This document shows, piece by piece, positions 33,472 through 46,006 of a stretch of DNA of 64,000 bases (positions within the stretch are counted from its first letter, which is position 1; each line of letters opens with the position of its first letter). A program made the translations under genes and the position numbers. Origin of the DNA: Pseudothauera nasutitermitis (lineage in GTDB: Bacteria; Pseudomonadota; Gammaproteobacteria; Burkholderiales; Rhodocyclaceae); contig NZ_SSOC01000006.1 of assembly GCF_004801295.1 (NCBI RefSeq), positions 1 through 64,000 on the forward strand. The letters are read 5' to 3'. The notes beneath the pieces were generated by a model. It searched no databases. It was not told the origin of the DNA and was given only the letters and a program-made list of their open reading frames with translations.

Positions 33472-33960
33472 GCGGTCGTGTTCTTCCGTTTCCGCTGCCG
33501 CGCGAGGGGGGCGGGCGGCGGGGAACCGGCGCCACGGTGTTCGCCGTCCGTCCGAAGGCGGATGACCCGTCGCGCCAATATATTTGCGCCAATATTCTAA
33601 CGCAAAGCGACCCGGCCCGTGCGGCCCAGCAATGCTTGTTTGCACTGGGCTCCCTGGCGAGTTTGCCGCGCAGAGGAGAAATTTTTTGACATACTTTTTT
33701 TGGATAACTAAATTAGTTCTGTTGCATGACCAGATTGAACTTATTTTCCGTTGGCATTGAACGCTTGGCGAAGCATGCCTCAGGCAGGCTCGCGGCGTCC
33801 GCCGGCGATCTTTCCTCCATGCCTTTCCGGCCTCATCCCCCTTCGCCTGTCTCCCGCTCCGAGGCCCAGTCTCTCGTACGCCCGGACGTTCTGCCCGCCG
33901 GCGAGCACCCGCTGCACTTGCGCGTCGAACTCCTCCTCTGACCGAGCCGCCTTTCCCGCC
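33472..33960 (+). promoter_or_regulatory. cdiA promoter and long leader region
   Basis: TTGACA at 33686-33691 and TAAATT at 33709-33714, with a 17-base spacer in an unusually T-rich stretch, make a good sigma-70 promoter pointing at the cdiA-like gene. The predicted 5' untranslated leader would then be about 240 bases to ATG 33961. A short ATG frame at 33726 (71 codons) and a TTG frame at 33751 that reads into cdiA both occur in the leader; neither has a clear ribosome site or recognisable content. Confidence 0.55.
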
Positions 33961-36900
33961 ATGAAGAACACCACCGCCTCTGTGCCGGAAACGCCGATGA
34001 ACCTGCGCAGCCCGGCCAGCCGCAGCCTGGCCTGGGTGCTCACCGCCACGCTGACCCTCAACCCGATGGCACCCGCGCTGGCCCAGATCACGGTGGCAAA
34101 CGGCACGACCACGCTCGGCCAGGCCGGCAACGGCGTGCCGGTGGTCAACATCGCCGCGCCCAACGCACGCGGGCTGTCGCACAACCGCTTCACCGACTAC
34201 AACGTCGGCAGCCAGGGGCTGATCCTCAACAACGCCACCGAGCGCACCCAGTCGACCCAACTCGGCGGGATCATCCTCGGCAACCCCAATCTGCAGGGCA
34301 AGGCCGCCGGGATGATCCTCAACGAGGTAACCGGCACCAACCCCAGCCAGTTGCGCGGCTACACCGAGGTGGCCGGGCAGGCCGCGCGGGTCATAGTCGC
34401 CAACCCCCACGGCATCAGCTGCGACGGCTGCGGTTTCATCAACACCCCGCGGGCGACCCTCTCCACTGGCCGGCCGATCCTCGAAGACGGGCGCCTGGAT
34501 CACTTCGACGTGGATGGCGGGCAGATCGCCATCGAGGGGGCCGGGCTCAACGCCAGCAATATCGACCAGTTCGACCTGATCACCCGCAGCGCGCGGATCA
34601 ACGCCGAGATTCACGCCAACCGGCTGAACATCGTCGCCGGGCGCAACCAGGTGGACGCCGACAGCCTGGCCGCTACCGCCAAGGCCGGCGCCGGCAGCGC
34701 GCAGCCCATGCTGGCCATCGACAGTTCGGCGCTGGGCGGCATGTACGCCGGCGCCATCCGCCTGGTGGGTACCGAGGCCGGGGTAGGGGTGAAGCTGGCC
34801 GGCGATCTGGCGGCCAGCGCCGGCGACATCCGCATCGATGCCAGCGGCAAGCTGAGCCTGGCGCAGACGGCTGCCGCTGGCGATCTGGCGCTCAAGGCCG
34901 GCGACCTGGATCTGACCGGCAAGACCTACGCCGGCGGCGAGGCCGAGATCGCCGCCCAGGGCCGGCTCGACGTGCGGCAGAGCCTGGCGGCGGCGGGCAC
35001 GGTCACCTTGCAGGGGGCGCAGGTGGTCAACCAGGGGGTGGTCGAGGCGGGTGTCCAGCCGGACAACGGCCGCGCCGCTGCCGACCTGCGGGTCAGCGCC
35101 CAGCAACTGCGCAATGCCGGCACCTTGATCGGCAATGGTCAGCTCGACGTCAAGGTCGAGCAGAGCCTGGACAACCGTGGCGGCACCCTCAGCGGCAAGA
35201 GCCTGGCCCAGGTCGAGGCTGGGCATCTGGACAACCGCCAGGGCCGGGTGCTGGCCGAGCAACAGTTGAAGATCGACGGCACGCACCTCGACAACGCGGG
35301 GGGCCTGCTGCAAAGCCAGGGGAGCGTCGCGATCAGCGTGCGCGAGGCGCTCGACAACCGCCAGGGCGATATCCACAGCCATGGCGACCTCCAGCTCACG
35401 GCTGGGCGGCTGGACAACCGCGAGGATGGCCTGATCCTCAGTCAGACCCGTCTGGACGCCGCTATTGGCCAATTGGACAACCGTGGCGGTGTACTCAGTG
35501 GCAGGCAGGCGCTGAGCCTGAGCGCACAAGGGGTCGACAACCGCGACCAGGGGCTGATCAACAGCGCCGGCGCCCTCGCCCTCGACGCCGACCGGCTCGA
35601 CTCCTCCAATCGGGGCGAAGTGTCCGCCAAGGGGACGCTCGCCGTGCGTGTGGGCGAACTGGTGCAGCACGGCGGCCAACTGATCGGCGAGGGCAGCGTC
35701 AGCCTCGACCTGCGGAGCGGCACCCTGGACAACCAGGGCGGCCTGATCGCTGCCGGGGAAGATCTGACCCTGAGCCAGGTCGGCGAACTGAGGAACGGCG
35801 GCGGCGAGCTGTCGAGTACGGGTGATATGGCCATTGCCGGCCGGCAACTGGACAACAGTCAAGGTGGCCGGTTGATTGCTGCAGGGCAACTGGCGCTCGA
35901 TGTCGACTCGGTGGACAACTCGGGCGCTGGGCTGCTCTCTGGCTGGAGCGGCATTCGTATCGACGGCGCCAGTCTCGACAACCGCGACCAGGGCACCGTC
36001 TCCAGTCGTGACGGCGCGCTGGAGGTGAACCTCAGCGGCACGCTCGACAACAGTGGCGGCGGGGCGCTGGTCAGCCAGGGCGCCCAGCGCCTTCGGGCCG
36101 GCAGCCTGGACAACCATGGCCAGGGCATCCTCTCCAGCGAAACCGGCATCGACCTGAACATCGCCGGCACGCTGAACAACGCCAGCCAGGGCCTGATTAG
36201 CGCCCCGGATCTCAGCCTCGAGGCCGGTCAGGTGCTCAACCAGGACGGCCGGATCGTCTCGGCGGGTGATCTGCTGCTCAGCGGCGGCGGCCTCGACAAC
36301 AGCGGCGGCAGCCTGACCGCCGCCCGAACCCTGAGCGCCAGCCTGAGCGGAACCCTGCGCAACAACAGCGCCGGTCAGCTCGCCAGCGGCGGGCCGCTGG
36401 TACTGAACCTGGGCAGCCTCGACAACCGTGGCGGGCAACTGGCCAGCCAGGGCCCGCTGGAACTGTTCGCCGCCAGCCTGGACAACACCCAAGGTGTCCT
36501 GGCCGGCCAGGGTGACATGACGCTGAAGCTCAGCGGTGCCCTGATCAACCGCGCCGAAGGACTGATCTACAGTCGCCAGGGCGGCCTGACGATCGAAGCG
36601 GACAGCCTGATCAACGATGCCGGCACCCTGCAGGCCAGGGGCCTGATCGATGTCGTCATCGAGGCGGCCGCGAGCAACCAGAGTGGGCGCATACTCAGCG
36701 AAAGCGGCGACCTCGAGCTGAGCGCCGAACGCCTGGACAACAGCAATGGTGGCATCCTTGCCAGTACCCTCGGTGGCATCAAGCTGGCCCTGGCCAGCCT
36801 GTTCGACAACCGTGGCGGCACCACCCAGGCCAAGCAGGATATCGACCTGAACACCACGGCTAACGGCCAGGTGCTCAATGCCGGCGGGCACCTCTCCGCC

Positions 36901-39900
36901 GTTGCGGGCAATGCCCGTATCCAGACCGGCACCTTCGACAACCAGGGCGGCGGCCTGTACGCCGGCAGCCTGCTCAACCTGTACGCCGGCAGCTTCGCCA
37001 ACCAGGGCGCGGCCGCCGGCCAGGGCGGCAAGGTCGCGGCGCACAGCATCGACTTCAGTCTGAGTGGCGCGCTGAACAATGCCCATGGCCTGATCGAGGC
37101 CGGGGATGCCCTGCGCTTCGGCGCCGCCAGCCTGGACAACCGCCAGGGTGCCCTGCGTGCCTTGGGCCAGGGCGGCGAGAGCCGCCTGACCACCAGCGGT
37201 GCGTTGGACAACCGTGGCGGCCGCATCGAAGTGGCCAATAGCGACCTTGCCCTGACCCCCGGCAGCCTGCTCAATGCCGACGGTTCGATCCTGCACCTCG
37301 GCAGCGGCAACTTCGGCCTGGCCAGCAGCAGCCTGGTGCAGGCCGGTGGCACACTGATCAGCAACGGCGCCCTGAGCGTCAATGCGGCCACCTGGAACCA
37401 CAGCGGCACCCTGCAGGCGCGCGAGCTGACCCTCGACGTCGGCACCTTCACCCAGAGCGCCAGCGGTCAGTTGCTGGCGACGCAGCGCCTGAGCGCCCGC
37501 GGCGGCGACTGGAGCAACGCCGGCCTGATCGCCAGCGACGGCAGCCTCGAGTTGACCCTGAGCGGTGCCTACGGCGGCAGCGGTCGCCTGACCAGCCTGG
37601 GCGACCTCAGCCTACAGGGCGCCAGCCTCGACCTGGCCGACGCCGGCAGCATCGCCGGTGGTGCGCTCAGCCAGTTGACCTTCAGCGGCCAGGCCGTCAA
37701 CCGTGGCCAACTCACCGCCGACGGCGACCTCACCGTGCGCGCCGCCAGCCTGATCAACTCCGGCACCCTGGGCAGCGCCGAGAACCTTCGGCTGTATGCC
37801 CCGACCCTGCGCAACGAGAACGGCCTGATCTTCAGCGGCGGGGACATGGCGCTGCGGGTGAACAGCTTCACCAACCGGTTTGCGGATGTGTACAGCCTGG
37901 GGGCCATCGACCTGGCGCAGGACGACGAGGGCCATGCGGGCGCTCTACTGGAGAACATCTCCGCCACACTGGAGTCGGCAGGCGACCTCAGTCTGGCCGT
38001 CTCGCAGTTGATCAACCGCAAGGACGTCTTCGCCGTCGAGTATGAACAGGCCTCGGGGCAGATCAGCGTCAGATGCTACGACTGCGGCGGCGATCACCAT
38101 AACGTGGACTACATTGCCAGGGAGGTCTTCGAGAGCCGAGTCGTCGAAGACTCTCCCAGTGCCCTGCTGCAAAGCGGGGCCGATCTGAACCTGGTGGTTG
38201 GCAGCCTGGAAAACCGCTACAGCACCATCGCCGCTGCCGGCGACCTGCGCATCGAGGCAGAGCGTCTGGATAACCAGGGCGCCGCCACCGGACAGAGCGT
38301 GCGAATCCGCACCTGGAATACCGGCCGGGTGACCGACGGCACCGATGAGCGTTTCCGCTACAACCACATCAACCCCTACAATGCCCAGGCCCTGCCCAAG
38401 GAGGTGCCCGTCGAAGCCCTGTCGCGTTTCACCCTGGTGAGTGACATCACCGAGGTCACGCCGACCGGGGTGGCAGCCGCGGCCATCATCCAGGCAGGTG
38501 GCGCCGTTTCCGTCACCGTTGCGGGTGCTGTGGACAACGGCGTCGTGCTGCAGCAAGCCGTGGCGAGCGGTTCGGAGCGGGAGGCAGGTACTGCCGTGCA
38601 TGGCTCGACCCAGCCCGTGGTCGTCACCCTCAACCCCCAGCTACCGCCTGATCTTTCCCAGCAGCAGGTCAACCCGCTTGAGCTGCCAGGCTTCAGCCTG
38701 CCTGTCGGCGATAACGGCCTGTTCCGCCTGAGTGGCCAGGGAGGCGAGCAGCAATCCGCCAGCGCCGGTCATGGCGACAGCCTGCCGGCCCAGCAGTTGC
38801 AGCATGCCCAGGGCTCGCCCATCGCCTCCCGTCCGGCAGGTGCCCACCCGTACCTGATCGAAACCAACCCTGCGCTGACCGAGCTGGCCCACTTCCTGGG
38901 CTCGGACTACCTGCTGGCCAACCTCGGCTACGACCCGGACCAGGCGCAGAAACGCCTGGGCGACGGGCTGTACGAGCAGCGTCTGATCCGCGAAGCGGTG
39001 GTGGCGCGCACCGGTCAGCGCTACCTGGCCGGGCTGAGCAGCGACGAGGCGATGTACCGCTACCTGATGGACAACGCGGTGGCGAGCAAGGACGCGCTGA
39101 ACCTGTCGGTGGGGGTGAGCCTGACGGCCGACCAGGTGGCCGCGCTCACGCACGACATCGTGTGGCTGGAAGCGTACGAAGTGAATGGGGAAGAAGTGCT
39201 GGTGCCGGTGCTCTATCTGGCCCAGGCCGAGGGCCGGCTGGCGGCCAACGGCGCGCTGATCCAGGGCCGTGACGTGACCCTGATCAGCGGCGGCGCACTG
39301 AACAACCAGGGCACCCTGCGCGCCAGCGGCGAGCTGGATCTGAGTGCCCAGCACATCGCCAACAGCGGGCTGATCGAAGCCGAGGAGCGCCTGCAACTGC
39401 TGGCCACCGAGAGCATCCGCAACGTCCAGGGCGGGATCATCAACGGGCGCGACGTCAGCCTGATCGCCGGGCAGGACATCCTCAACGCGCGTACGGTGAC
39501 GAGCTATTCCGCCGAAGGGCGGGGTTTCAGCCAGTATGGCAGCCTGCTCGACAACGCGGCACAGATCGAGGCGAGGGGGGATCTCAGTCTGTCGGCGGGT
39601 CGCGATATCCAGAATACAGGGGGGGCGCTGAGCGCCGCTGGCAACGCCGAACTTCACGCCGGCAACGACCTGGTGATTAGCGCCGCGCAAGCGCAAGAAG
39701 GCCAGATGCGCCAGGACAAGCGTCATTTCTGGAGCGCAGGACAGACCACCCAGCATGCCGCCGACGTGACGGTGGGCGGTCACCTGGAGGCCGCTGCCGG
39801 GCGTGACCTTGCGGTGATCGCCAGCCGGGTGCAAGCCGGCGGGGACGCGTTCCTGCTGGCCGGCGGCGACCTGACGCTGTCGTCGGCGGCCGACGTCTCG

Positions 39901-41547
39901 CACACGGACTACCGCTACCGGAGCAGCCGCAAGAAGATCCACGATGAAAAGCTCAGCGTGCGCCAGCAGGCGGCCGAGGTGGAAGCGGGCGGCAACCTGC
40001 TGCTGGCGGCCGGTGAGGACCTGACGCTGGTGGCCAGCGCGGCGCAAGCCGGGGGCGAAGCCTACCTGTACGCCGGCGGCGAGGTGGCGCTGCTGGCTGC
40101 GGAGGATCTGAGTTACAGCCTCTACGACAAGAAGAAAAAGGGCAGCTTCGGTCGCAAGAAGATGCGCCGCGACGAAGTGACCGTGATCACCCAGGTGGGC
40201 AGCCAGGTGAGCGCGGGCGAAAGCGTCACGCTGGAAAGCGGCGGTGACCAGACCTACCAGGTGGCGAAGCTGACCAGCGGCGGGGATCTGACCCTGGACA
40301 GTGGCGGAGAGATCGCCTTCGAAGGGGTGATGGACCTGAAGCAGGAAAGCCACGAGAAGAGCAAGAGCAGTTGGGCGTGGACCTCGGCCAAGGGCAAGGG
40401 CAAGACGGACGAGACGCTGCGCCAGAGCGAACTGGTGGCCGGAGGTGAGCTGGCGATCCGTGCGGCGGGCCGGATCAGCATCGACATCAAGGAAGTCAAT
40501 GCGCAGACGGTGAGCCAGACGATCGACGCGCTGGTGCAGGCGGACCCGCAGCTGGCGTGGCTGAAGGAGATGGAAGCGCGCGGGGACGTGGATTGGCAGC
40601 GCGTGAAGGAAGTGCACGACCAGTGGAAGTACAGCCATTCGGGCATGGGCCCGGGGCTTGCGCTGGTGGTGGCGATCGTGGTGGCGGCGGTGACCGGGCC
40701 GATGATGAGCACCTGGATCGGCTCGGGCGCGCCGGCCACCTCGGCGCTGACGGCGGCGCTCCCGGCCACGGCGACGGCGGCGGCGATCCCGGCGGGCTGG
40801 GCCAACGTGGCGCTGACGGCGGCCATGAGCTCGGCGGCGAGCAACATGGCGATCAACACGATCAACAGTGGCGGGGACCTGGGCGAAGCGTTCAAGCTGA
40901 CCTTCTCGGGCGATGCCATGAAGGGCTATGCAAGCGCCGCAGTAATCGCCGGCTTAGGAGCGTATACGGATATGTGGGGCCGTACAACGACTGAAAGCGG
41001 CAACACGATACTGACCGATCTGCCCGAACGTGCAAAGGCCTATGCACTGAATACTGCCGTCAAAGGTGTGCTTACCGGTGCCAGCAGTTCTGAGGAGTGG
41101 GCGACCGTGGCTGGTATCGGACTGATGGGAGAGGCGTACCAATACTGGGTAGGTCGAGAATCGGACCTACGGCCCGGTGTGGACAGGCCAGAGGGAGCAA
41201 AATTTTTCCCCATTCCAGAAGACGGTTTCTTCCGTGTACCCACAGTTATCGTTGAGGGAGTTGTGCGCGAAGGGAAAAACATTGGGCTGAATGATGTTTG
41301 CACGTCAGCTTTATCTATTTGCCATGGAATGCCGATCAGCAATGCCTTGAATGCAGTTCCAGGATTCAATTCATTTGCTACGCTCCACGATACTTGGATG
41401 AATTGGTTGGATGTAAATAAAATGACAAATGTGGCGACGAATATTGGATCCATGCCTCCTGCGCTAATATTGAATTATGGCAGCCTTGCCAACCAATACT
41501 ATTGGCTCAAGCCGACGGTCGATCAATCTAGAGAGAATGATAGATGA
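33961..41547 (+). CDS. cdiA: CdiA/TpsA-type two-partner-secreted contact-dependent toxin
   Basis: A 2,528-residue protein. Order by residue: export leader with MNLRSPASRSLAWVL (13-40); TPS domain with NPHGISCDGCGFINT near 148; about a thousand residues of FHA-1 repeats with LDNRGG-like units (310-1290); YP-like region with GSDYLLANLGYDPD and KRLGDGLYEQRLIRE (1630-1765); FHA-2 repeats (1765-2160); hydrophobic DUF637-like pretoxin (2240-2320, SAASNMAINTINSGGDLG); variable C-terminus (about 2340-2528) ending with NAVPGFNSFATLHDTWMNW. I see no VENN or ELYN boundary motif. The C-terminal coding DNA is AT-richer than the body, as expected for an exchanged toxin. The stop overlaps a lipoprotein gene start (ATGA), the likely immunity gene. 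No TpsB gene is present nearby. ATG 33961 is preferred; 33997 is an alternative. Confidence 0.88.
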   Translation: MKNTTASVPETPMNLRSPASRSLAWVLTATLTLNPMAPALAQITVANGTTTLGQAGNGVPVVNIAAPNARGLSHNRFTDYNVGSQGLILNNATERTQSTQLGGIILGNPNLQGKAAGMILNEVTGTNPSQLRGYTEVAGQAARVIVANPHGISCDGCGFINTPRATLSTGRPILEDGRLDHFDVDGGQIAIEGAGLNASNIDQFDLITRSARINAEIHANRLNIVAGRNQVDADSLAATAKAGAGSAQPMLAIDSSALGGMYAGAIRLVGTEAGVGVKLAGDLAASAGDIRIDASGKLSLAQTAAAGDLALKAGDLDLTGKTYAGGEAEIAAQGRLDVRQSLAAAGTVTLQGAQVVNQGVVEAGVQPDNGRAAADLRVSAQQLRNAGTLIGNGQLDVKVEQSLDNRGGTLSGKSLAQVEAGHLDNRQGRVLAEQQLKIDGTHLDNAGGLLQSQGSVAISVREALDNRQGDIHSHGDLQLTAGRLDNREDGLILSQTRLDAAIGQLDNRGGVLSGRQALSLSAQGVDNRDQGLINSAGALALDADRLDSSNRGEVSAKGTLAVRVGELVQHGGQLIGEGSVSLDLRSGTLDNQGGLIAAGEDLTLSQVGELRNGGGELSSTGDMAIAGRQLDNSQGGRLIAAGQLALDVDSVDNSGAGLLSGWSGIRIDGASLDNRDQGTVSSRDGALEVNLSGTLDNSGGGALVSQGAQRLRAGSLDNHGQGILSSETGIDLNIAGTLNNASQGLISAPDLSLEAGQVLNQDGRIVSAGDLLLSGGGLDNSGGSLTAARTLSASLSGTLRNNSAGQLASGGPLVLNLGSLDNRGGQLASQGPLELFAASLDNTQGVLAGQGDMTLKLSGALINRAEGLIYSRQGGLTIEADSLINDAGTLQARGLIDVVIEAAASNQSGRILSESGDLELSAERLDNSNGGILASTLGGIKLALASLFDNRGGTTQAKQDIDLNTTANGQVLNAGGHLSAVAGNARIQTGTFDNQGGGLYAGSLLNLYAGSFANQGAAAGQGGKVAAHSIDFSLSGALNNAHGLIEAGDALRFGAASLDNRQGALRALGQGGESRLTTSGALDNRGGRIEVANSDLALTPGSLLNADGSILHLGSGNFGLASSSLVQAGGTLISNGALSVNAATWNHSGTLQARELTLDVGTFTQSASGQLLATQRLSARGGDWSNAGLIASDGSLELTLSGAYGGSGRLTSLGDLSLQGASLDLADAGSIAGGALSQLTFSGQAVNRGQLTADGDLTVRAASLINSGTLGSAENLRLYAPTLRNENGLIFSGGDMALRVNSFTNRFADVYSLGAIDLAQDDEGHAGALLENISATLESAGDLSLAVSQLINRKDVFAVEYEQASGQISVRCYDCGGDHHNVDYIAREVFESRVVEDSPSALLQSGADLNLVVGSLENRYSTIAAAGDLRIEAERLDNQGAATGQSVRIRTWNTGRVTDGTDERFRYNHINPYNAQALPKEVPVEALSRFTLVSDITEVTPTGVAAAAIIQAGGAVSVTVAGAVDNGVVLQQAVASGSEREAGTAVHGSTQPVVVTLNPQLPPDLSQQQVNPLELPGFSLPVGDNGLFRLSGQGGEQQSASAGHGDSLPAQQLQHAQGSPIASRPAGAHPYLIETNPALTELAHFLGSDYLLANLGYDPDQAQKRLGDGLYEQRLIREAVVARTGQRYLAGLSSDEAMYRYLMDNAVASKDALNLSVGVSLTADQVAALTHDIVWLEAYEVNGEEVLVPVLYLAQAEGRLAANGALIQGRDVTLISGGALNNQGTLRASGELDLSAQHIANSGLIEAEERLQLLATESIRNVQGGIINGRDVSLIAGQDILNARTVTSYSAEGRGFSQYGSLLDNAAQIEARGDLSLSAGRDIQNTGGALSAAGNAELHAGNDLVISAAQAQEGQMRQDKRHFWSAGQTTQHAADVTVGGHLEAAAGRDLAVIASRVQAGGDAFLLAGGDLTLSSAADVSHTDYRYRSSRKKIHDEKLSVRQQAAEVEAGGNLLLAAGEDLTLVASAAQAGGEAYLYAGGEVALLAAEDLSYSLYDKKKKGSFGRKKMRRDEVTVITQVGSQVSAGESVTLESGGDQTYQVAKLTSGGDLTLDSGGEIAFEGVMDLKQESHEKSKSSWAWTSAKGKGKTDETLRQSELVAGGELAIRAAGRISIDIKEVNAQTVSQTIDALVQADPQLAWLKEMEARGDVDWQRVKEVHDQWKYSHSGMGPGLALVVAIVVAAVTGPMMSTWIGSGAPATSALTAALPATATAAAIPAGWANVALTAAMSSAASNMAINTINSGGDLGEAFKLTFSGDAMKGYASAAVIAGLGAYTDMWGRTTTESGNTILTDLPERAKAYALNTAVKGVLTGASSSEEWATVAGIGLMGEAYQYWVGRESDLRPGVDRPEGAKFFPIPEDGFFRVPTVIVEGVVREGKNIGLNDVCTSALSICHGMPISNALNAVPGFNSFATLHDTWMNWLDVNKMTNVATNIGSMPPALILNYGSLANQYYWLKPTVDQSRENDR
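35160..37760 (+). repeat. FHA-1 repeat region within cdiA
   Basis: Dozens of degenerate repeats of about 20-30 codons with the core L-D-N-R/S/Q-x-G-x-L, predicted to build the beta-helical stalk of the secreted protein. The repetition also keeps the antisense frame open for over 1,000 codons, which should not be annotated as a gene. Confidence 0.85.
38851..39290 (+). repeat. YP-like segment, copy 1 (in cdiA)
   Basis: Segment coding for the SDYLLANLGYDPD to LYLAQAEGRL block. It recurs at 42218-42665 and 45137-45560 with high DNA identity, including long identical stretches such as that coding AVVARTGQRYLAGL. These shared blocks could recombine to move downstream toxin modules into cdiA. Confidence 0.85.
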
Positions 41548-42170
41548 AAATCAAAAGAGGTATATCAATTTCACTGACTCTGGCATGTTTTTTTATGGTG
41601 AGTGGGTGTTATCATGGTTACTGGAAAGAAAGCAAGGATAGGTTGATTGGAACAAAATTCGATCCAAGTAAAAACCGGGATGAAACAGGGGGTGGATATA
41701 GATTTTTTGTTCCAAAAGGGGAGGGGGTTTACTATCGTGTGGATCAAGAACCACCCAATACTCGCTATTTCATCAAATGGACTCCACATTGCCGGTATTC
41801 GCTACTGGTCGATCCGAACGGTACGATCCTTTCTTGGCGCTTCGAAGATACGGAAAATCCTAGCCGGTCTTGTACCATTAGCTGAAAAAACAAAAGAGAT
41901 GACAGATTTATTTTTGCTCCACCCGACGCTCTTTAAAATAGGTAGATGATGCTGCTTGGCCGGGTGTACAGATTGTGTGTTTGTATGGCATAAATTTTGA
42001 TCCAGTGCTCCTTCAAATCTCCCACATGCCCCATTTTCTGTAGTTTGCGATGAACCTCCGTACTTCGGCCAGTCGCATCCTTGTCTGGGCGCTCAGCGCC
42101 ACGCTGATCTTCAACCCCATGCATCCGGCCCTGGCCCGGATTGCTGCTTTTTCCGACCTTTCGCAGCAGC
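41362..42170 (+). repeat. 0.8-kb direct repeat, copy 1
   Basis: Covers the 3' end of cdiA, the lipoprotein gene, the intergenic region and the start of the next leader. It matches 44280-45089 with a constant offset of 2,918 bases (2,919 after one extra A near 44808) and few substitutions, so it is a fairly recent duplication. Confidence 0.88.
41544..41885 (+). CDS. small lipoprotein, predicted CDI immunity protein (I1)
   Basis: A 113-residue lipoprotein: basic start MKIKRG, hydrophobic stretch, lipobox MVSGC with Cys at 22. The residue after Cys is Tyr, not Asp, so outer-membrane sorting is expected by the usual rule. The mature part ends with the conserved block FIKWTPHCRYSLLVDPNGTI and RSCTIS. 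ATG overlaps the cdiA stop (ATGA), giving tight coupling. A lipid-anchored periplasmic immunity protein implies that the toxin acts in the periplasm or at the membrane. No known immunity family recognised, hence an inference from gene order, size and duplication with the toxin ends. Confidence 0.75.
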   Translation: MKIKRGISISLTLACFFMVSGCYHGYWKESKDRLIGTKFDPSKNRDETGGGYRFFVPKGEGVYYRVDQEPPNTRYFIKWTPHCRYSLLVDPNGTILSWRFEDTENPSRSCTIS

Positions 42171-43814
42171 AGACCAGCCCGCTGCCCCCGTCCGAGTCCG
42201 GCGCGCCGAAGCCCCCGTACCTGATCGAGACGAACCCTGCGCTGACCGAACTGGCCAATTTCCTGGGCTCGGACTACCTGCTGGGTCTGCTGGGCGAGGA
42301 TGGGGACACGTCCTGGCGGCGGCTGGGCGACGGGCTGTACGAGCAGCGTCTGATCCGCGAAGCGGTGGTGGCGCGTACCGGGCAGCGCTATCTGGCCGGG
42401 CTGGGCTCGGACGAAGCGATGTACCGCTACCTGATGGACAACGCGGTGGCGAGCAAGGACGCGCTGAACCTGTCGTTGGGGGTGAGCCTGACAGCCGAGC
42501 AGGTGGCCGCGCTCACGCACGACATCGTGTGGCTCGAAGCGTACGAAGTGAATGGGGAAGAAGTGCTGGTGCCGGTGCTGTACCTGGCGCAGGCCGAAGG
42601 CCGGCTGGGCCCGACCGGGGCGCTGATCCAGGGCCGGGACGTGACGCTGATCAGCGGCGGCGAACTTTCCAACCAGGGCACGCTGCGGGCGGTGGGCAGC
42701 CTGGATGCAGGTGCTGCGAGCTGGCGATCCGCGCGGCGGGCCGGATCAGCATCGACATCCCGGAAGTCAATGCGCAGACGGTGGGGCAGACCATCGACGC
42801 GCTGGTGCAGGCCGAACCGCAGTTGGCGTGGTTGAAGGAGATGGAAGCGCGCGGGGACGTGGATTGGCAGCGCGTGAAGGAAGTGCACGACAGCTTCAAG
42901 TACAGCCATTCGGGGCTGGGAGCGGGGCTGAGCCTGGTGGTGGCGATCGTGGCGGTGGCGGTGACCGGGCCGATGACGAGCACCTGGATCGGCTCGGGCG
43001 CGCAGGCCGGCTCGGCGCTGGCGGCAGCAGTGCCAGCCACGGCCACGGCGGCGGCGATCCCGGCGGGCTGGACGAACGTGGCGCTGACGGCGGCGGCGAC
43101 CTCGGCGGCGAGCAACATGGCGATCAGCACGATCAACAACGGAGGGGACCTGGGCGCGGCGCTCAAGGAAACCGATGCGCTTAAGGGCTATGCGAGTGCA
43201 GCAGCAATCGCCGGCTTAGGGGCGTATACGGATATGTGGGGCCGTACAACGACTGAACGCGGCAACACGATACTGACCGATCTGCCCGAGCGTGCAAAGG
43301 CTTATGCACTGAATACCGCTGCCAAGGGGATTCTTACTGGCGCGAACAGTCCGGAAGAATGGGCGACGGTAGCCGGTATCGGACTAATGGGGGAAGCGTA
43401 CCAATACTGGGTCGGTCGAGAAACGGACCTACGGCCCGGCGTAGACCGGTCAGAGGGGGCGAAATTTATTGCCATTCAAGAAGATGGTTTCTTCCGCGTA
43501 CCCACGGTTGTCGTTGAGGGAGTCGTGCGTGAAGGGAAAATATTGGCTTCAATGATGTATGACTATTATCGTTTTCTATTTGCCACGGAACACCGATCAG
43601 CAACGCGTTGAATGCCGTGCCAGGATTCAACGCCTTTGGTACCTTACACGACACTTGGATGAATTGGATCGATGAAAGAGGGATAAGTAGTACCGCAATC
43701 AACCTTGGTAGCATGCCACCTGCAATAATAGTGAACTATGGCGGGACCGCCAATCGATATTACTGGCTCAAGACCACCATCGAACAAGCCAAGGTTCGAG
43801 AGGAAAAGAAATGA
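42050..43814 (+). pseudogene. orphan CdiA module 1: leader + YP-like + pretoxin/toxin, frameshifted
   Basis: Starts with its own export leader (MNLRTSASRILVWALSATL) joined directly to the YP-like block at about codon 57, omitting TPS and FHA-1. At about 42712 an internal deletion relative to cdiA (about 1.1 kb of FHA-2) shifts the frame; homology resumes with ELAIRAAGRISID in another frame and continues through the DUF637-like region. Near 43538 one base is missing from an A-run and a TGA replaces a Cys codon, so the end (43608-43814, with PGFNAFGTLHDTWMNWID) is in a third frame. The toxin end differs in sequence from that of cdiA, so it is a different allele. Unlikely to make a full-length protein. 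Confidence 0.8.
42218..42665 (+). repeat. YP-like segment, copy 2 (orphan module 1)
   Basis: Second copy of the block at 38851-39290. It differs mainly at its start, where GLLGEDGDTSWRR replaces ANLGYDPDQAQKR, then is nearly identical to the end of the block. Confidence 0.85.
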
Positions 43815-44164
43815 AGAGGCTGAATTTTTCGATGACCGTCGCGATGCTTTCCATTTTCTGCGTGGGATGCGTGTCGCATAGCATGTGGGTGGATGAAAGG
43901 GACAAAATGGTCGGCACAAAATTTGATCCATCTTGGAATGTTGGTATGGCAAGAATTGGAGTAATGAATAGATATAAGGCTTCTGTCCATCAGGATGATG
44001 AGGTTGCTTACTATCGTATGGACCAAGAATCACCCAACATCCGCTACTTCATCCAATGGACTCCTCATTGCCGGTATTCGTTGCTGGTCGACCCAAACGG
44101 TACGATCCTTTCATGGCGCTTCGAGGCTACGAAAGACCCTGGCCGGTCTTGTGTCATTCATTGA
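43811..44164 (+). CDS. small lipoprotein, predicted immunity protein of a second allele (I2)
   Basis: A 117-residue lipoprotein with lipobox FCVGC (Cys 20). Its C-terminal half is almost the same as I1 (QWTPHCRYSLLVDPNGTI, SWRFEATKDPGRSC), but residues 20-65 are quite different. This is the pattern expected if the N-terminal half reads the cognate toxin. The start overlaps the last codon of the broken toxin end (ATGA), the same coupling as at cdiA. The frame is intact although its toxin is broken, so selection to keep protection against siblings is plausible. Confidence 0.72.
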   Translation: MKRLNFSMTVAMLSIFCVGCVSHSMWVDERDKMVGTKFDPSWNVGMARIGVMNRYKASVHQDDEVAYYRMDQESPNIRYFIQWTPHCRYSLLVDPNGTILSWRFEATKDPGRSCVIH

Positions 44165-44189
44165 AGAAGACAAGGAGGTGCGGAAATGA

Positions 44190-44465
44190 AGCGCCTGCGT
44201 TTATGGGTTTCCCAGCTTCAACGCCTTCGGCACATTGCACGATACCCGGATGATTAGTAATGTCTTGAACACGGTCCCGGGATTCAATTCATTTGCTACG
44301 CTCCACGATACTTGGATGAATTGGCTGGATGTAGAAGAAATGACAAATGTGGCGACAAATATTGGATCCATGCCTCCTGCGATAATATTGAATTATGGCA
44401 GCCTTGCAAACCAATACTATTGGCTCAAGCCGAAGGTCGATAAATCTAGAGAGAATGATAGATGA
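44190..44465 (+). pseudogene. toxin C-terminal fragments fused in tandem (orphan module 2)
   Basis: An open frame follows the TGA at 44187. It encodes FPSFNAFGTLHDT, the start of an allele-2-like toxin end, joined directly to RMISNVLNTVPGFNSFATLHDTW and the rest of an allele-1-like end. The only internal start is TTG 44235. It is a scar of recombination between two toxin ends. The stop overlaps the next lipoprotein gene by ATGA as in the other modules. Without leader or pretoxin it is unlikely to be secreted. Confidence 0.75.
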
Positions 44466-45089
44466 AAATCAAAAGAGGTATATCAATTTCACTGACTCTG
44501 GCATGTTTTTTTATGGTGAGTGGGTGTTATCACGGTTACTGGAAAGAAAGCAAGGATAGGCTGATTGGAACAAAATTCGATCCAAATGAAATTCGGAATG
44601 AAACAGGGGATGTATATAGAGCTTTTGTTCCAAAAGGGGAGGCGATTTACTATCGTGTGGATCAAGAGCCGCCCAATACTCGCTACTTCATCAAGTGGAC
44701 TTCACATTGCCGGTATTCGCTGCTGGTCGATCCGAACGGTACGATCCTTTCTTGGCGCTTCGAAGATACGGAAAGTCCTAGCCGGTCTTGTACCATTAGC
44801 TGAAAAAAACAAAAGAGATGGCAGATTTATTTTTGCTCCACCCGACGCTCTTTAAAATAGGTAGATGATGCTGCTTGGCCGGGTGTACAGATTGTGTGTT
44901 TGTATGGCATAAATTTTGATCCAGTGCTCCCTCAAATCTCCCACATGCCCCATTTTCTGTAGTTTGCGATGAACCTCCGTACTTCGGCCAGTCGCATCCT
45001 TGTCTGGGCGCTCAGCGCCACGCTGATCTTCAACCCCATGCATCCGGCCCTGGCCCGGATTGCTGCTTTTTCCGATCTTTCGAAGCAGC
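44280..45089 (+). repeat. 0.8-kb direct repeat, copy 2
   Basis: Second copy of 41362-42170, carrying the toxin end, the third lipoprotein gene, the intergenic region and the leader of the third orphan module. Recombination between the copies would delete about 2.9 kb, including module 1 and I2. Confidence 0.88.
44462..44803 (+). CDS. small lipoprotein, predicted immunity protein (I3, near-copy of I1)
   Basis: A 113-residue lipoprotein almost the same as I1: identical signal peptide and lipobox MVSGC, and the conserved FIKWTSHCRYSLLVDPNGTI end. Differences cluster at residues 41-60 (DPNEIRNETGDVYRAF against DPSKNRDETGGGYRFF), the same place where I2 diverges. Coupled by ATGA overlap to a toxin remnant. 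It probably protects against allele-1 toxins or a slight variant of them. Confidence 0.73.
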   Translation: MKIKRGISISLTLACFFMVSGCYHGYWKESKDRLIGTKFDPNEIRNETGDVYRAFVPKGEAIYYRVDQEPPNTRYFIKWTSHCRYSLLVDPNGTILSWRFEDTESPSRSCTIS

Positions 45090-46006
45090 AGACCAGCCCG
45101 CTGCCCTCGTCCGAATCCAACGTGCCGAAACCCCCGTACGTGGTGGAAACCAACCCGGCGCTGACCGAGCTCAAGCAGTTCATGGGCTCGGACTACCTGC
45201 TGGCCAACCTCGGCTACGACCCGGACCAGGCGCAGAAACGCCTGGGCGACGGGCTGTACGAGCAGCGTCTGATCCGCGAAGCGGTGGTGGCGCGCACCGG
45301 TCAGCGCTACCTGGCCGGGCTGAGCAGCGACGAGGCGATGTACCGCTACCTGATGGACAACGCGGTGGCGAGCAAGGACGCGCTGAACCTGTCGGTGGGG
45401 GTGAGCCTGACGGCCGAGCAGGTGGCCGCGCTCACGCACGACATCGTGTGGCTCGAAGCGTATGAAGTGAATGGGGAAGAAGTGCTGGTGCCGGTGCTGT
45501 ACCTGGCGCAGGCCGAAGGCCGGCTGGGCCCGACCGGGGCACTGATCCAGGGCAGCGACCTGGCGCTGATCGCCGGGGACACGCTCGCCAACCGGGGCAC
45601 GCTGCGGGCCGACGGAAACCTCTCGGCCACGGCCGGTCAGGTGGTCAACAGCGGCCTCATGGAAGCGGGCGATCGGCTGTCGGTGCTGGCGGTCGACAGC
45701 GTGCTCAACACCCGGGGCGGCATCCTCGCGGGGCGCGACGTGGACGTCACCGCACTCAGCGGGGACCTGATCAACGAGCGCACGGTGACGGAATTCACCA
45801 GCCAAGCCAGCAGGCTGAGTTTCGCCCACAGCCAGGTTCCTGCCCAGCAGCCCGTCGGCCTTGCCGAGCAGGCGCTGGATTATTGCAAGAGCACACCGGA
45901 GCAGCGCGCCCCGCGTTTTGTCGAACAGACAGCAGAGGACGTACTGGCTGCGATGGAGCGAGGCACAACACAGGGCTGCCGCAGCTATCCGCTTGAAACA
46001 TTTTGA
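44969..46006 (+). CDS. orphan CdiA module 3: leader fused to YP-like and FHA-2 start, no toxin
   Basis: A 345-residue open frame with the same leader as module 1 (MNLRTSASRILVWALSATL), a Ser/Pro linker, then the YP-like block (GSDYLLANLGYDPD, closest to cdiA) and one or two FHA-2 repeats (GALIQGSDLALIAGD, GGILAGRDVDVTALSGD). After about residue 275 the sequence leaves the CdiA homology and ends with a short Cys-containing tail. It has no pretoxin, toxin or following lipoprotein gene, so it looks truncated by a deletion, though the frame is intact and a secreted product is possible. The last copy before the housekeeping genes resume. Confidence 0.7.
   Translation: MNLRTSASRILVWALSATLIFNPMHPALARIAAFSDLSKQQTSPLPSSESNVPKPPYVVETNPALTELKQFMGSDYLLANLGYDPDQAQKRLGDGLYEQRLIREAVVARTGQRYLAGLSSDEAMYRYLMDNAVASKDALNLSVGVSLTAEQVAALTHDIVWLEAYEVNGEEVLVPVLYLAQAEGRLGPTGALIQGSDLALIAGDTLANRGTLRADGNLSATAGQVVNSGLMEAGDRLSVLAVDSVLNTRGGILAGRDVDVTALSGDLINERTVTEFTSQASRLSFAHSQVPAQQPVGLAEQALDYCKSTPEQRAPRFVEQTAEDVLAAMERGTTQGCRSYPLETF
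45137..45560 (+). repeat. YP-like segment, copy 3 (orphan module 3)
   Basis: Third copy of the block at 38851-39290. It keeps GSDYLLANLGYDPD and is closer to the cdiA copy than to copy 2 in the first half. Confidence 0.85.

Follow-up and report, generated by a model that had tools for sequence, protein, structure and literature searches.

Loci for contact-dependent growth inhibition (CDI; cdiBAI) encode an exoprotein with a two-partner secretion (TPS) domain, filamentous haemagglutinin (FHA) repeats and a polymorphic C-terminus, followed by a small immunity-type gene and, further on, by displaced orphan cdiA-CT/cdiI modules (PMC9086364, PMC4725963). The CDI papers cited here stress nucleases (PMC9086364) and inner-membrane ionophores (PMC11630599). 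The stretch analysed here, hereafter the window, comprises positions 1-64000 of contig NZ_SSOC01000006.1 (C6) of the Pseudothauera nasutitermitis genome (4.72 Mb, 20 contigs) and carries a locus that shares all of these structural features. However, this locus has neither an adjacent cdiB nor any of the junction motifs listed below, and the partner gene encodes a lipoprotein. We consider it probable that the C-terminal tip of the CdiA-like protein (T1) and the lipoprotein encoded directly after it (I1) form a toxin-immunity pair of a so-far unnamed family, in which the tip acts in the cell envelope and I1 protects against it. Sequence comparison supports the assignment of this pair to a widespread family of such toxins and lipoproteins.

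The features that define the pair and its carrier are as follows:
33943..41547, + strand: CdiA-like exoprotein gene, 2534 amino acids from the ATG at 33943 (alternative ATG at 33979), without a neighbouring cdiB
34084..34860, + strand: TPS secretion domain (PF05860; Pfam, E 9.4e-57 to 7.6e-55)
40810..41034, + strand: DUF637 pretoxin domain, partial (37.6 bits against a cut-off of 26.6)
40960..41544, + strand: toxin region T1 as modelled, with a core at 41341-41544 that contains N-x2-P-G-x-N-x5-H-D
41544..41885, + strand: I1, candidate immunity lipoprotein of 113 amino acids, with an ATGA overlap with T1 and the lipobox VSGC22

The open reading frame (ORF) that ends at 41547 is open in its longest form from 33751. 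A Pfam scan of the whole protein recovers 19 haemagglutinin-repeat stretches and 5 FHA-2 stretches which, with the TPS domain, are the hallmarks of a CDI exoprotein and bear out the CdiA-like character assigned in a preliminary description of this DNA. The same description proposed a DUF637-like pretoxin region, another feature of CDI (CdiA/BcpA) exoproteins. This domain passes the Pfam cut-off solely in a separate scan of the C-terminal piece (40267-41544) and is not listed in the whole-protein scan, and the match covers profile positions 1-55 of 168, such that the assignment holds for only part of the domain. The junction motifs VENN, ELYN, QLYN, LYVT, DAMV, NEALV-like and WVHN were not found in the protein by motif search; VENN is also missing from other CDI classes (PMC4725963). 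By eye, an Ala/Gly-rich stretch lies upstream of the toxin domain. The GC content of the tail (41263-41544) is 44% and that of I1 is 43%, compared with 68% for the gene body (33943-40900), which fits an imported cassette. Cassette parts overall range from 42 to 47%.

Relatives of the tail are scarce in the surroundings of the window and scattered beyond them. A profile made from the three tails of the window (T1 and two downstream remnants) matched four of 369 genomes of the same class, namely the genome itself, a second genome (G574) with two loci, and two chance matches. A lipoprotein follows both tails in G574, one of which is carried by an Rhs protein (by eye). Within the order to which G574 belongs, two of eight genomes matched, and the additional one (G668) adds a third toxin/lipoprotein pair, likewise on an Rhs protein. 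In the order of the window, four of 399 genomes matched, three of them by chance and the fourth being the genome itself, which was also the sole match when 300 genomes of that order were searched with a single sequence. A tblastn search of plasmids with three tails gave no match. Scanning species genomes with a degenerate DNA motif of the shared core yielded 57 loci, 41 of which were judged to be relatives by how long the tail is, whether it lies at the C-terminus and whether it has the second helix. The other 16 were rejected by eye as chance matches (L035, L036, L037, L041, L044, L045, L048, L049, L064, L067, L069, L070, L072, L073, L083 and L087), including L045, L064 and L073 with one profile match each at E up to 1e-3. 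Profile matches at L010, L011 and L030-L032 were discarded as spurious.

The 41 relatives, many from metagenome bins, comprise 31 from Pseudomonadota, nine from six other phyla (Thermodesulfobacteriota, Nitrospirota, Kiritimatiellota, Omnitrophota, Campylobacterota and Chloroflexota) and one without an assigned phylum. For 27 of them there was sufficient upstream sequence for Pfam to examine the carrier: RHS repeats occur in nine, DUF637 in eight and FHA-2 repeats in seven. Two delivery families, CdiA-like and Rhs, thus make use of this kind of tip. As in Rhs polymorphic toxin systems, some toxin/lipoprotein relatives end Rhs proteins (by Pfam, and by eye for L009 and L028), whereas the window copy is carried by a CdiA-like protein. 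The family also connects the toxin repertoires of CDI and Rhs systems across seven phylum names. In the tree, the window tail clusters with those of Halotalea, Pseudothauera, Azonexus, two Burkholderiales, Stutzerimonas and Pseudomonas (support 100/99). The single clade formed by CDI-like loci is partly circular, since this label was set by eye and in part from sequence similarity. Nonsynonymous (dN) and synonymous (dS) divergence from the Halotalea counterparts are 0.033 and 0.678 for T1 and 0.131 and 0.393 for I1, and the window copies and their relatives are under purifying selection. At L009 (2175-2714) and L028 (2172-2717), in two related genomes, near-identical small ORFs that look transposase-like by eye lie just past the Rhs toxin/lipoprotein pairs; presumably these are of the transposase type associated with repetitive extragenic palindromes (REP).

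A lipoprotein gene lies directly downstream of all three toxin ends in the window. Using a rule that accepts a small lipobox-like ORF starting from 40 bases before to 150 bases after the toxin stop, the same arrangement is found in 38 of 40 testable relatives, compared with 19 of 212 control ends, taken where other ORFs of 250 codons or more terminate at the same loci, some of these ORFs not being genes. A stricter rule gives 32/40 against 7/212. One relative (L076) is outside this count, as its sequence ends at the locus edge. The joint occurrence of tails and lipoproteins in other genomes shows that their association is not chance. The two also diverge in parallel: across 33 loci, the toxin and lipoprotein identity matrices correlate with r 0.82 (maximum of 2000 permutations, 0.288), although common descent accounts for part of this value.

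The lipoprotein alignment includes 33 of the 38 downstream proteins and the three from the window; a shortened protein (L057) and four unlike ones (L059, L074, L080 and L082) were omitted. In three of these last cases (L074, L080 and L082), divergent family tails precede lipoproteins that look unlike the main immunity family and seem to have no kinship with it, and a replacement of the immunity partner is suggested. The lipobox cysteine and C83 are invariant in the alignment, and C110 is almost so. Further lipoprotein relatives occur at L047, L052, L053, L057, L061, L062 and L089. At L089 (936-2107, from an Azonexus bin), three of them stand in a row behind one tail as a polyimmunity array, and this locus and the window both have surplus lipoproteins without an equal number of whole toxins. 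The proposal that the lipoprotein serves as the immunity protein, made in the preliminary description, finds good comparative support in the pairing frequency, the presence of the pair on both CdiA-like and Rhs carriers, the parallel divergence, and the extra copies in arrays.

A small lipoprotein in a CDI locus could instead have an accessory role, helping the exoprotein to be exported or displayed. The precedent is BcpO, a small predicted outer-membrane lipoprotein of some Burkholderia bcpAIOB CDI operons whose loss lowers CDI activity (PMC9086364), which we liken to the window lipoprotein by description. Unlike BcpO, which is accompanied by a separate BcpI, the window lipoprotein follows the toxin tail immediately with no intervening gene, it tracks the tail in divergence, and it is duplicated along with tail remnants. 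Members of its family also follow Rhs proteins, whose delivery does not involve two-partner secretion. We therefore regard an accessory role as quite improbable.

The predicted location of the lipoproteins bears on where the toxin might act. None of 41 lipoproteins carries Asp at position +2 after the lipidated cysteine, the residue that specifies inner-membrane retention in the E. coli sorting rule, and by this rule they would go to the outer membrane. Given this expected location, we infer a periplasmic site of toxin action. In the mechanism that we favour, the CdiA-like protein would bring T1 to a neighbouring cell, where the tip would act in the periplasm or on membranes that face it, making entry into the cytoplasm unnecessary. 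I1, predicted to lie on the periplasmic face of the outer membrane, would bind the tip on arrival and so protect the producer. A CdiA end with lipoprotein immunity would amount to a CDI tip that acts no further in than the periplasm, and makes it possible to test whether CDI can do without its second step, the passage across the inner membrane.

CDI toxins of known structure fall mostly into two nuclease superfamilies (PMC9086364), which act in the cytosol, and the tip might likewise be cytoplasmic, with the lipoprotein catching it in the periplasm before it crosses the inner membrane. The Ala/Gly-rich stretch ahead of the domain could aid such a crossing. However, this arrangement would leave the producer exposed to its own cytoplasmic precursor, and the tail matches no nuclease or other toxin family in Pfam or NCBIfam. 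Moreover, immunity proteins against cytosolic CDI nucleases are themselves cytosolic, unlike the lipoprotein. A cytoplasmic target thus appears unlikely, if somewhat less so than an accessory role for the lipoprotein.

Within the envelope, the nature of the toxin activity can be considered from conservation and predicted structure. T1 has the features that define the family, a C-terminal N-x2-P-G-x-N-x5-H-D sequence followed by a P-x-A helix. The positions N131, P134, G135, N137, H143 and D144 belong to the search motif, and their invariance across the 41 loci is built in. Counted by eye in ten non-window relatives picked without the motif, P134 is retained in 10/10, H-D in 9/10, N137 in 9/10 (counting one residue shifted by an insertion) and G135 in 6/10. 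The tail at L028 is without the His of H-D. Well-kept positions beyond the motif include M165, Y173, P94, N161, G123 and S127. The AlphaFold2 model from 42 tails (predicted local distance difference test (pLDDT) 87.2, predicted template modelling score (pTM) 0.80) is mainly helical (helices 21-39, 44-64, 136-152 and 165-182) and runs from two N-terminal helices through a small beta region to the helix with N137, H143 and D144 and then to further C-terminal helices. Alignment of this model by VIA-align with the 207 top Foldseek-ranked chains gave no convincing fold match. The conserved N-x5-H-D helix suggests the catalytic site of an enzyme, and with low confidence we propose that this enzyme works at the membrane surface or on the cell wall.

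A non-enzymatic tip that disrupts membranes or forms pores is also conceivable. The helical model, the Ala/Gly-rich stretch in front of it, and a weak glycine-zipper match in two of 42 members (E 0.022) are all compatible with such a domain. Yet the mean hydropathy of the measured helices is near zero, too low for plain membrane spans, and the polar residues N137, H143 and D144 are retained in nine of the ten relatives picked without the motif. The E. coli CDI ionophores, moreover, have immunity proteins that are two-helix membrane hairpins rather than lipoproteins (PMC11630599), and a second hydrophobic span was found in none of 36 lipoproteins of the family. The Wx[ST]IP motif of the Tox-WTIP pore formers (PMC3482391) occurs in none of the 42 tails. 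We consider a pore former possible but lean towards an enzyme. Phospholipase A2, which the His-Asp pair on a helix recalls, was rejected as a candidate: the Tox-PLA2 motif CxxHxxxYxN (PMC3482391) is found in 0/42 tails and no such fold is among the structural matches listed, and a loose pattern finds an acidic residue on the last toxin helix in 22/42. The fuller proposal of a widespread contact-toxin family shared by CDI and Rhs systems, periplasmic, with a new fold, an N-x5-H-D site and a target in the envelope, and countered by an outer-membrane lipoprotein, is tentative, with somewhat less than an even chance of being right in all its parts. If true, CDI would include effectors that stay outside the inner membrane throughout, together with immunity proteins of a new class.

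The lipid-targeting Lipocone toxins are likewise polymorphic tips, and the immunity proteins that accompany them, BamE-like or other lipoproteins or else membrane proteins, face the periplasm; one of these immunity types consists of an alpha-helix and four beta-strands with four cysteines (PMC12419801). The model of the window lipoprotein (pLDDT 72.8, with residues 46-60 below 50) resembles this type, as it has one helix and four strands past the signal helix and lipobox, although the family has two conserved cysteines besides that of the lipobox, and the model has no clear fold match. The toxins themselves differ. Lipocone domains distribute His, Glu and Asp across three core helices, whereas the window tip has no such set; N137, H143 and D144 share one helix, and among the 32 best-kept positions there is no acidic residue on any other toxin helix. 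The toxin model is mainly helical, and comparison with the four-helix Lipocone cone gives no fold match either way. The carriers listed in one section of PMC12419801 include no type V secretion (T5SS)/CDI protein. Among the immunity proteins of a 2012 collection, Imm65 is the sole apparent lipoprotein (PMC3482391); it is like I1 by description, and its partner is a different toxin, Tox-JAB-1. BamE-like immunity lipoproteins have a two-helix hairpin followed by three strands; the window model, of low confidence in part, shows one helix after the lipobox and four strands.

The hidden Markov model (HMM) searches advocated in the preliminary description place neither protein in a described family. 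The window tail has no significant match in Pfam or NCBIfam. Among the 42 aligned tails, Pfam finds DUF637 in six (best E 0.0046), two glycine-zipper models (one in two members and the other in one) and one chance match, and NCBIfam gives four single matches (E 0.04-0.1). A scan of five proteins against PHROGs gave no match, and a PDB profile search with the tail alignment gave nothing up to E 5. Single-sequence PDB matches of the tail to the aryl hydrocarbon receptor (E 0.09) and a sphingomyelinase-like protein (E 0.18) were judged to be chance. For 36 lipoproteins, Pfam yields seven families with one member each (E 0.0055-0.095) and NCBIfam yields nine weak families, including MdtQ in three proteins (best E 0.011) and, in one, NF045617 (E 0.012), annotated as 'putative T6SS immunity periplasmic lipoprotein' (T6SS, type VI secretion system). 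The PDB profile search with the lipoprotein alignment gave three matches (E 0.69-2.5). In sum, DUF637 at the front edge of the tail is the one significant match of either family to Pfam, NCBIfam or PDB sequences. Because the Pfam and NCBIfam copies searched hold no matching model, annotation based on them would leave both the toxin and the immunity gene unnamed. A search of open-access PMC papers found no CDI immunity lipoprotein in the titles and abstract openings listed. The lipoprotein-immunity type is not named where PMC4725963 tabulates Pseudomonas CDI loci, and the one lipoprotein mentioned in the PMC9086364 passages is BcpO. These results agree with the earlier suggestion that the pair may be undescribed.

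A CDI exoprotein is expected to have a cdiB gene in the same locus, and the 64-kb window contains none. The genome encodes four ShlB-type transporters, on contigs C1 and C2 and none on C6, and five TPS exoproteins, of which the window protein is the sole one on C6. Of the other TPS exoproteins, only that of the cdiBA locus on contig C2 (C2:285000-304000; L092, 3737-14728, - strand) was compared with the window protein. There, the CdiB gene precedes that of a 3630-amino-acid CdiA whose identity to the window protein is 51% across 2224 aligned positions, with the likeness beginning at the start of the protein and a different C-terminal end. Burkholderia BcpB transporters export non-cognate BcpA proteins (PMC10449530), which makes export of the window protein through a distantly encoded CdiB plausible. 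The next ORF after the C2 CdiA is small and Cys-rich (CPCC), and no lipoprotein was seen by eye in the three downstream frames. The different end of this paralogue also bears on whether the tail could be no toxin but a common structural or adhesive terminus of the exoprotein, as the lack of a match to any known toxin family would allow. A structural end would not be expected to terminate unrelated carriers beside a partner lipoprotein, nor, in the window, to lie within low-GC cassettes, and we regard this explanation as very improbable.

Downstream of I1, the locus continues with the following features:
41886..42049, + strand: low-GC leader (GC 42%), within the copy pair 41334-42690 / 44252-45609
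42050..42835, + strand: orphan module 2, 5' piece, with a signal-peptide-like start (by eye) and then a late CdiA part
42529..43611, + strand: orphan module 2, pretoxin-like piece, a 360-amino-acid ORF
43608..43814, + strand: T2, toxin-tail remnant in its own frame, 61% amino acid identity to T1
43811..44164, + strand: I2, 117-amino-acid lipoprotein, 54% identical to I1, ATGA overlap with T2, lipobox CVGC20
44235..44465, + strand: T3, toxin-tail remnant, 90% identical to T1, with the relic of another copy of the core ahead of it
44462..44803, + strand: I3, 113-amino-acid lipoprotein, 90% identical to I1, ATGA overlap with T3, lipobox VSGC22
44804..44968, + strand: low-GC leader, second copy (GC measured over 44807-44968)
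44969..46006, + strand: last fragment, built like the 5' piece of orphan module 2 (signal-peptide-like start, then a late CdiA part)

All three toxin ends are coupled to a lipoprotein gene by an ATGA overlap (at 41544, 43811 and 44462) and all three lipoproteins have a lipobox cysteine, as was first noted in the preliminary description. Its count of three decayed or partial modules is correct for two orphan toxin/immunity modules; the third is a fragment in which neither a toxin end nor a lipoprotein was found. In orphan module 2, the reading frame breaks downstream of the 5' piece, and T2 is in a different frame from the preceding pretoxin part. T3 is just the final part of the toxin domain. 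By contrast, the genes for I1, I2 and I3 are all open over their full length, the latter two beside broken tails. The repeat pairs 41334-42690 / 44252-45609 (92% identity) and 40447-41893 / 42718-44173 (79% identity), together with the core relic before T3, indicate that the array grew through duplication and recombination, during which toxin parts broke and lipoprotein genes remained open. Divergence is low between I1 and I3 (dN 0.047, dS 0.117) and higher between I1 and I2 (dN 0.353, dS 1.123). Retention of I2 and I3 from older, displaced modules might give the producer wider protection against toxin variants, and such orphan immunity arrays offer a clear case for testing cross-protection. 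Orphan modules of CDI loci lack a start codon, whereas the two orphan pieces here begin with signal-peptide-like sequences. Pfam finds no TPS match in the 5' piece of orphan module 2, and the short CdiA-like starts at 42050 and 44969, both without such a match, might reach the periplasm yet escape export by CdiB.

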